Source: a bacterium
Lineage (GTDB): Bacteria; Planctomycetota; JAFGQW01
NCBI GenBank assembly: GCA_030426805.1
Contig: JAUHXU010000005.1
Span: 372,001-436,000, forward strand
Length of the DNA stretch: 64,000 bases
Direction of reading: 5' to 3'
This document shows, piece after piece, positions 8,792 through 11,248 of the stretch (the stretch's first letter is position 1; each line of letters begins with the position of its first letter). The position numbers and the translations under genes are program-made. The notes below the pieces were generated by a model that did no database searches, was not told the origin of the DNA, and saw only the letters and a program-made list of their open reading frames with translations.

Positions 8792-9799
8792 TCAACGCTC
8801 GCCGCCGCCCAATTCCCGCGCCCACGCCTCGAACGCGAAGCGGTAGACGTCGGGTCGGAACTTGTCCCACGGGCCGAGTGACTCGGGGATCGTGTAGCGC
8901 TTCCACGCCTCGCCGGGCGGGATGCCCTTGGCGTGCGCGTCGCGGGCCGCGGCCCCGACGTGGTCGAGGAGTGCGAGGTAGAGCTTCAGGCCCTTCGCGT
9001 CGGTGACCGGTCCGTGGCCGGGCACGTAGGTCACGCCGGGGTCCTTCAGGAACGATGCACACGTCTCTGCGAGCACGGACGGCGTCGCATCGCCGTAGTA
9101 CGGAAACAGCCCGTTGAACACGAGGTCACCGCACCAGACGATGCGCGGTTCGACGATCTCGACGGTCACATCGCTCGGCGTGTGGCCGCGGCGCGAGACG
9201 AGACGCACGACCACTCCGCCGAGATCGAGCTCGACCGGTTCCGGCCCGGCGGCGAACACCGTGTTCGGCACGACGTGCGTATGTTTCGACTCGGTGAGCG
9301 TGCCGTCGTCGCCCGGCGGCGTGCCCTTCCGAATCGAGCCGAGCAGCAGGTCGCGCGTCTCGGCGGTCGAGACGAGGCGCACGTCGGCGTTCGCGGCGAG
9401 GTGACCGCACAAGCCGTTGGCGTGATCCCCGTGGTGGTGCGTCAGCACGACGTGCGTCGGCGCCCGGCCGGTCAACGCCTTCGCGGTCTCGGCGACGAAA
9501 CGCGATCCGGCAGCGCTGTTCGACGCGTCGACGACGAGCACGCCGTCGCGGCCACGAATGATGCCGCTGTTCGACACCGCTTCGTAGCCGCCCTTCGGCG
9601 TCGCGATCACGGCCCAGAAGCCGTCGGCGATCTTCTCGACCCGCGCGAACGGTGCCGAGCGGATCGTCTCGCCGCGCTCCTGTGCGAACAGACGCGATCC
9701 GAACGTACCCATCGCGCCGAGCGAGAGCATCACGTAGCTCCCGCAGCCGATCGCGCCCTTGATCGCGTCGCGCCGCGTGCAGCCGCACGAATCGTTCAT
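8792..9799 (-). CDS. Tat-exported metallo-beta-lactamase-fold hydrolase
   Basis: A 335-residue zinc hydrolase. The N-terminus has a twin-arginine signal (CTRRDAIKG followed by a hydrophobic stretch ending FGSRLFAQ), so it is probably exported folded with its metals. The HxHxDH metal motif is THHHGDH; later ligands are plausible in RRGHTPSD, WCGDLVF and VPGHGPV, the usual order for the superfamily. The fold and spacing resemble periplasmic quinoprotein-associated or SoxH-like hydrolases, but the substrate cannot be read. It starts 24 bases after the FG-GAP/VCBS gene on the same strand, so the two likely form an operon. A purine-rich AGAGGAA lies about ten bases before the ATG. Confidence 0.9.
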   Translation of the reverse strand: MNDSCGCTRRDAIKGAIGCGSYVMLSLGAMGTFGSRLFAQERGETIRSAPFARVEKIADGFWAVIATPKGGYEAVSNSGIIRGRDGVLVVDASNSAAGSRFVAETAKALTGRAPTHVVLTHHHGDHANGLCGHLAANADVRLVSTAETRDLLLGSIRKGTPPGDDGTLTESKHTHVVPNTVFAAGPEPVELDLGGVVVRLVSRRGHTPSDVTVEIVEPRIVWCGDLVFNGLFPYYGDATPSVLAETCASFLKDPGVTYVPGHGPVTDAKGLKLYLALLDHVGAAARDAHAKGIPPGEAWKRYTIPESLGPWDKFRPDVYRFAFEAWARELGGGER

Positions 9800-9823: not shown

Positions 9824-11200
9824 TCACTCGGATGCGGGCTTCTCGGCCGGCAACCGCTCGTAGAACCAGACGAACGCCTTGCGTTGCGGGCCCGGGACGA
9901 GTTCCCGGTGCTTCTGATAGAGGTCCCGCATCCGCTTCTGCGCCGGCGCGATCCGATCCTTGAACGACTCCCGCACCGCGCTGCCCTTCTCGCGCGCCTC
10001 GGGGCTGCGCGGCTCGAGGCCCTTCATCGCGTCCATCACCGCGGCCGACATCTTCTGCATCAACGCCTGATACGCGGCACGCGCATCCTTCAGCTCGGCG
10101 GCGAGGCGTTCGGCTGTCGCCTTCTCTTCGTCGGTGAGCTCGCGCCCCTTCGGCGTCCACATCGAGTAGCCACCGACGATCAGGTCGAGATCGCCGTCTC
10201 CATCGACGTCGGCGACGGTCGGGTAGAGCCCGGCGTGGGGCGCATTCGGCTCGGTGCCGGCGCGCTCGGGCGGCGCGATCAACGTCTCCGGCGCCGCGAA
10301 CACGGGCGCGCCGACCTGGCCGGTGTTGCGGAGAAGGTAGACCCCGCCGGACTCGCCCTTCGCGGCGTAGCTGTTCCCGAAACTGCCGGTGACGATGTCG
10401 AGATCGCCGTCGCCGTCGAAGTCGACGAGGGTCGGCGCGGTCATCTTCGCCGGCAGCGCGAACGGCGTGCCGCCCGCCATCACCGGCACGCAGGTGCCCG
10501 TGTATTCCGGCTCCTCGTCCGTCCCCTCGTTCATCTGTCGATAGAGATGACCGTTCTCGTAGCTGCCGAGCAGCAAGTCATGGTCGCCGTCGCCGTCCCA
10601 GTCGAACGCCAGCGCCGAAATGCACCGCTCGCGTGGCGCTTCCGACACGCCGAGCGCACGACCGGTCTTGTCGTGCTTCTTCTTCTCGTAATCCCAATAC
10701 GACGAGATCACGACGCGCTTGCCGTTGCGATCCTTCAGGCGCACCGGCTCGGCAAAGCCCTTCGCGTTTCCGAATGCGACGTGCGGGGAACCGTCGAAGG
10801 TCGCGGTCAAGTAGTCGAGATGGCCGTCACGGTTAATGTCCACAAACTGTGAACCCATCCCGATGCATCACCAGTTGTGGAACTTGAGCGGCTTGCCGTT
10901 CGCGGCGTTCAGCGGCTTCTCGCCCTCGAACGAGAACCGGCCGGTGGTCTTCGTGCCGCGCGCCCACGTCACCCGGCCGAACAGGTCGCCGATGACGATG
11001 TCGAGCACGCCGTCGCGATCGACGTCGTGCATCATCGGCGACGGATACATGCGCCCGTCACCGAGGCCCTTGCCGCCGGCCTGGATGCGGACCGGTTCGG
11101 CGAACATCGGCTTGTCGCCGGACTGGGCGGTCGCGAACGCCGGCAGCAGTGCGGCGCACCCCGCCGCGAGCGTGAGCGTGTGAAGCTTGTCGATGCGCAT
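9824..11200 (-). CDS. Secreted FG-GAP/VCBS repeat protein with in-frame TGA: candidate selenoprotein
   Basis: Read through one TGA (10870-10868) this is a single 458-residue gene. ATG 11200 follows a strong GGAGG and starts a signal peptide (MRIDKLHTLTLAAGCAALL). FG-GAP/VCBS calcium-binding units are VDRDGVLDIVIGD before the TGA and VDINRDGHLDYL, DWDGDGDHDLLLGS, DFDGDGDLDIVTGS and DVDGDGDLDLIVGG after it; a charged helical tail of about 110 residues follows. The TGA is codon 111, reading FHNW-U-CIGMG. Both sides are in the same frame, and the part after the TGA has no signal peptide and no good ribosome site at its first ATG (10858), so it is not a separate gene. A SECIS-like hairpin follows the TGA. 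If decoded as selenocysteine the protein has a Sec-Cys pair, a possible redox centre on a propeller. Alternatives are a nonsense mutation or a TGC-to-TGA sequence error. Confidence 0.7.
10838..10870 (-). promoter_or_regulatory. Candidate selenocysteine codon (UGA) and bacterial SECIS hairpin
   Basis: On the minus strand the UGA at 10870-10868 is followed by a hairpin at 10854-10838. The stem is GTTCACA pairing with TGTGGAC: seven consecutive pairs, one of them a T-G wobble. The loop is GTT. Twenty bases separate the UGA from the first loop base. Known bacterial SECIS elements have a small apical loop with G in the first or second position, a stem of at least four pairs and about 16-37 bases between UGA and loop; this fits all three. 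The structure was found by eye and not scored. Confidence 0.5.
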
Positions 11201-11248
11201 GGGCACCTCCGGTTCGGACACGTGACAGTGGGTCGATCGGCGTCGATC

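Follow-up and report, generated by a model that had tools for sequence, protein, structure and literature searches.

The locus raises the question of whether two open frames that lie in the same minus-strand reading frame, separated by one TGA, are the remains of a damaged gene or a single gene in which the UGA is read as selenocysteine (Sec). The frame 11200..9824 of the window (the whole stretch of 64,000 nucleotides that was analysed) contains only one internal stop, the TGA at 10870-10868 (codon 111), which is followed by TGC. We conclude from comparative sequence, without protein-level evidence, that this frame is very likely one intact gene with UGA 111 read as selenocysteine.

A probable single gene across an in-frame UGA

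The features of the locus, all on the minus strand, are as follows.

9824..11200, minus: gene for an FG-GAP beta-propeller protein of 458 aa, very likely a selenoprotein with Sec at codon 111 (translation, Pfam, more than 100 homologues with the same UGA)
11200, minus: start codon ATG; the terminal stop TGA is at 9826-9824, counted within the gene
11205..11210, minus: Shine-Dalgarno-like GGAGGT, 4 nt upstream of the ATG (sequence)
11123..11200, minus: putative signal peptide, residues 1-26 (by eye; hydrophobic N-termini in homologues; low model confidence over residues 1-25)
10868..10870, minus: in-frame UGA, very likely read as selenocysteine, Sec111 (UGA conservation in homologues and genomic Sec machinery)
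10865..10867, minus: Cys112, invariant partner in the Sec-Cys pair (three alignments, of 11, 19 and 57 members)
10838..10854, minus: bSECIS hairpin GUUCACA-GUU-UGUGGAC, 7 pairs, loop 20 nt past the UGA (folding, family comparison)
9899..10132, minus: insertion in the last blade, a helical hairpin spanning about residues 357-434 (AlphaFold2 model m767e299b15ef)
8792..9799, minus: metallo-beta-lactamase-fold neighbour gene with a probable export signal (Lactamase_B, 8.4e-16), 24 nt downstream of the selenoprotein gene

The Pfam FG-GAP_3 family (PF13517) matches the translation at 1.3e-25, with units on both sides of TGA 111, and the score of 90.2 bits against a Pfam cut-off of 26.9 establishes family membership. 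The putative signal peptide, MRIDKLHTLTLAAGCAALLPAFATAQ, was judged by eye, and similar hydrophobic N-termini are present in nearly all homologues. Because the first half amounts to one blade only, and the second has neither a signal peptide nor a visible ribosome site, we infer from the sequence that neither half alone is likely to fold as a propeller. The initial annotation had proposed one minus-strand frame joined by TGA-TGC, a signal peptide and first FG-GAP unit before the TGA with the remaining units after it, and a second half without signal peptide or visible ribosome site; each of these claims held when the frame was re-read, the units resting on Pfam and the signal on inspection by eye. 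Co-transcription with the metallo-beta-lactamase-fold gene is possible, and we note that this linkage was not seen elsewhere and that no conserved linkage has been shown.

The UGA is conserved across a planctomycete family

In a search of 59 related genomes, homologues from other families, at 31-59% identity, each have an in-frame TGA, and wherever a homologue from these relatives covers the site, TGA-TGY occupies one shared alignment position. The U-C pair is invariant in all three alignments, down to about 25% identity. As an unbiased test we also scanned about 85,000 species genomes with the motif NW-TGN-C-I-G-M, which Sec, Cys and Trp codons can all satisfy. Family matches have TGA in 69/69 instances, and the 19 chance matches outside the family are distributed among TGA (5), TGC (6), TGT (3) and TGG (5). 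Among the matches are the complete genomes of Poly30, a strain of Saltatorellus ferox, and Pla163, a strain of Rohdeia mirabilis, the latter with two loci; the complete-genome accessions carrying the TGA-TGY are CP036290.1 and CP036434.1. Conservation of the UGA is thus shown by comparative sequence.

A phylum-wide profile search (392 genomes, E 1e-20) found the family in 96/392 genomes. Several genomes have two to four copies, and one (G386) has four UGA members; G386 is most likely Pla163, since the SelA coordinates of the two agree, and Pla163 would then carry all four; Poly30 carries at least one. More than 100 distinct UGA members were found, belonging to Planctomycetota wherever the record names a phylum, although we make no claim of absence outside Planctomycetota beyond the NWUCIGM motif scan. 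No relative was found in the plasmid and phage collections searched. The source genome has two more UGA paralogues, L051 (G000:C5:38400-40400) and L052 (G000:C2:538200-540200).

The initial annotation had left open that the locus is a pseudogene or a sequencing or assembly error, in which a TGC codon of a Cys-Cys pair became TGA in the source genome. One point change would yield the same sequence, and MAG-like assemblies do contain errors. However, there is no other stop, the protein is conserved on both sides of the TGA, and non-TGA family motif matches number 0/69. A TGA in one gene could be chance, but TGA-TGY in more than 100 distinct homologues cannot, and a read error is ruled out because the same codon recurs in that many independent genes, complete genomes included. 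This alternative fails, and pseudogene or error is left with almost no room.

Selenocysteine machinery and cysteine forms

The source genome (5.58 Mb, 6 contigs) encodes tRNA-Sec, SelA, SelB and SelD, the machinery expected for a bacterial selenoprotein, as comparative sequence shows. The tRNA-Sec gene (77 bits, TCA anticodon) adjoins selA, and selB is also present. The selD gene (L018, G000:C5:853822-854748) has an in-frame TGA within ASCAGUAGK, at what we take, from established enzyme knowledge, to be the catalytic Sec/Cys site of SelD. The SelD of the source genome is a selenoprotein itself, encoded beside selB.

SelA is present in 18/18 UGA genomes among the 59 relatives (Fisher p 0.001), in 45/48 further UGA genomes, and in Pla163, Poly30 and three other named genomes. 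The three exceptions are 77-82% complete; the Sec form is thus confined to Sec-decoding genomes, with incomplete assemblies as the only exceptions.

The phylum-wide search turned up only seven Cys forms, six from one genus (six genomes) and one singleton (G187); in each of them TGC or TGT takes the exact place of the UGA, and Sec/Cys exchange is likewise shown by comparative sequence. The six genomes of the Cys genus are 99-100% complete, and we found in them no tRNA-Sec and no real SelA, only partial matches of 34-41 bits; the genome of the singleton has both SelA and tRNA-Sec. A search started from the singleton Cys protein returned UGA forms almost exclusively. In a tree of 106 proteins there are two state changes, and Sec-to-Cys loss is suggested because both Cys groups are nested among UGA forms; the tree is a quick search with a midpoint root and many weak forks, and, with the root not proven, we regard secondary derivation of the Cys forms as possible. 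The Cys forms of the six-genome genus (L181-L186) carry another Cys-Cys pair (KHCCPVVADW or similar) within a later blade, which is absent from the UGA forms inspected.

A SECIS hairpin conserved beyond the protein sequence

The hairpin in the window folds at -12.3 kcal/mol over the 48 nt after the UGA. Folded alone it is not significant by shuffling (z -1.28), and the case for a SECIS therefore rests on the family. Numbered from the T of the UGA, stem columns 17-23 pair with columns 27-33, and across 101 distinct UGA sequences a mean of 6.06 of the 7 pairs form, versus 3.69 in synonymous-codon shuffles that keep each gene's own codon usage (1000 runs, maximum 4.03, sd of the mean 0.096); the statistic is not corrected for relatedness of the sequences. 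In 57 distinct sequences there are both-sided changes at 5/7 pairs, 26 cells in all, a count matched by 0/500 shuffles and by no slid register, and example family stems are CCAC/GUGG, CCGC/GCGG, CUGC/GCAG and CCAUC/GAUGG. The hairpin overlies conserved codons, and the protein accordingly accounts for some of it, but its conservation across the family far exceeds what the protein sequence forces.

The bSECIS model calls for a loop of 3-9 nt with G in the first two positions, a stem of >=4 bp, a distance of 16-37 nt from the UGA, and an MFE of at most -7.5 (PMC13188914). The window hairpin meets it (GUU, 7 bp, 20 nt, -12.3), as do 96/101 family members versus 23% of synonymous shuffles; a conserved SECIS is thus also shown by comparative sequence. 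The Cys forms have lost this hairpin, and 3/7 still meet the loose bSECIS criteria through other hairpins. An Rfam search of the window found nothing. A miRNA match in a local permissive scan is a chance match. The seven-pair hairpin with a GTT loop 20 bases after the TGA, as first described, held exactly, and its bacterial SECIS geometry held through the bSECIS model and the family covariation. None of the three refuting conditions named in the initial annotation was fulfilled: selA, selB, selD and tRNA-Sec are all present, homologues have UGA at the position and Cys in 7 cases, and recurrence of the codon rules out a read error.

Alternatively, a different amino acid could be inserted at the UGA, such as Trp (code 4) or Gly (code 25), or the codon could be a programmed partial stop; under either scheme the frame would stay open past it. 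Against this, the gene itself ends in TGA, where a genome lacks Sec machinery its homologue carries Cys and not Trp or Gly, and the SECIS is conserved, and we consider these decodings excluded for practical purposes. The source organism decodes Sec, while UGA also serves as a normal stop, since it terminates the selenoprotein gene itself.

Predicted structure of the protein

AlphaFold2 run on the 57-row alignment gives an all-beta model of repeated blades (mean pLDDT 92.6) that qualifies as a propeller fold, and a final strand at 439-447 would close the propeller ring. In the model a loop ahead of strand 118-120 holds Sec111-Cys112, and that strand continues into the second blade's Ca-binding DINRDG loop; that the pair is near the central channel is an inference made without coordinates. 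Solved-structure and fold searches returned general propellers only, with partial alignment and TM about 0.3-0.4. The protein is thus predicted by the model to be a beta-propeller with an invariant Sec-Cys pair, and its export is also a prediction.

Thiol-redox links and a proposed mechanism

Links to thiol-redox proteins come from four loci only (L119/L026, L031, L160 and L132). The first (L119:4571-7120, also L026) is a single 850-aa frame with a signal peptide and two in-frame UGAs, in which a redoxin/TlpA domain with FWUGPC is followed by an FG-GAP domain with NWUC. In L031 an FG-GAP domain is fused to a following DsbD_N, and in L160 DsbD_N lies between FG-GAP modules. At L132:3396-4380 a gene for a secreted TlpA-like protein with an in-frame UGA (TWUGPC) lies directly downstream of an FG-GAP selenoprotein gene. 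Default ORF calling truncates this TlpA-like gene. We found no conserved gene neighbour in the 8-kb loci, where most members have none and high-GC antisense frames clutter the test.

We propose that the hairpin 20 nt past UGA 111 would direct SelB to deliver Sec-tRNA-Sec to that codon. The product would be an exported FG-GAP beta-propeller whose second blade has the Sec-Cys pair on the loop running into its inner strand, and this pair would most probably cycle between selenol/thiol and selenenylsulfide as the active site. The protein would then be an extracytoplasmic oxidoreductase acting on peroxide, disulfide or another substrate, in a direction that is undetermined, and TlpA- or DsbD-type partners with a thioredoxin fold would return the pair to its reduced state. 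Both the redox cycle and the redox partners are inferred. On balance we lean towards an extracytoplasmic thiol-redox function, with catalysis inferred from fusion and adjacency only and no activity data; of the earlier proposal of a secreted Sec-Cys propeller serving as a redox site, the redox part has support only by inference.

The main rival keeps the selenoprotein but gives its Sec-Cys pair a binding role in place of thiol-redox catalysis, with a metal, a metalloid or a form of selenium as ligand, as in the capture of Hg, Cu or selenite. Adjacent Cys/Sec pairs do occur in the metal-handling selenoproteins HgcA, MerB-like SaoL and MbdU (PMC13188914). FG-GAP propellers are often binding scaffolds. 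However, the domains found fused or adjacent, DsbD_N and TlpA-type thioredoxins with UxxC, are electron-transfer modules, and no metal-transport gene family recurs in the neighbourhoods. We consider metal binding unlikely.

Returning to the thiol-redox interpretation, a bolder form of it is a new class of exported beta-propeller selenoenzymes in which Sec-containing TlpA or DsbD-type partners charge a catalytic pair of adjacent Sec and Cys, with Sec ancestral across much of Planctomycetota and Cys forms arising by loss at least twice. Taken whole, we would favour this reading by a narrow margin.

Relationship to known selenoproteins

The TlpA/thioredoxin-fold selenoproteins (UxxC, UGC; 'UGC-containing TlpA disulfide reductase', 'HUIPC motif thioredoxin-like') are likewise extracytoplasmic, pair Sec with Cys and depend on SelB and a SECIS, and the FG-GAP member fused to a TlpA/thioredoxin-fold Sec domain is a shared link. 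Unlike these, the FG-GAP family has a beta-propeller fold and an adjacent U-C motif without a spacer. It resembles the FG-GAP_3/FG-GAP proteins (PF13517, PF01839; integrin alpha, CRTAC1, ITFG2, bacterial VCBS) in sequence membership and in its predicted propeller, but the 2026 inventory of 119 prokaryotic selenoprotein families (Table 1, PMC13188914) has no FG-GAP, VCBS or other propeller entry with Sec. Sec is also nearly universal in glycine reductase selenoprotein A (GrdA), which has few Cys homologues or none (PMC12013277). The FG-GAP family is similarly Sec-dominant with Cys rare, although GrdA is unrelated in fold and function, and the FG-GAP family has its 7 apparently derived Cys forms.

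No NCBIfam selenoprotein model (June 2026) matches the window protein or 18 relatives, and the open-access literature searched contains no FG-GAP or VCBS selenoprotein, the families of Haft and Tolstoy 2025 being covered only via the 2026 inventory. Within these sources, this is likely an uncatalogued selenoprotein family with a fold not previously listed with Sec. The deep-Sep authors name as a blind spot that families without Cys homologues may be filtered out (PMC12013277), and this family, with Cys homologues so scarce, may have escaped searches for Cys/UGA pairs for that reason.

The finding adds a family from Planctomycetota, a phylum with a little-described selenoproteome, every member of which standard annotation would split into two fragments at the UGA. 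It also offers a testable system, with UGA members in complete genomes and naturally occurring Cys forms in a genus that does not decode Sec, and the natural two-Sec fusion points to the electron donor. If the bolder reading is true, the change from Sec to Cys would be the reverse of the usual Cys-to-Sec direction.
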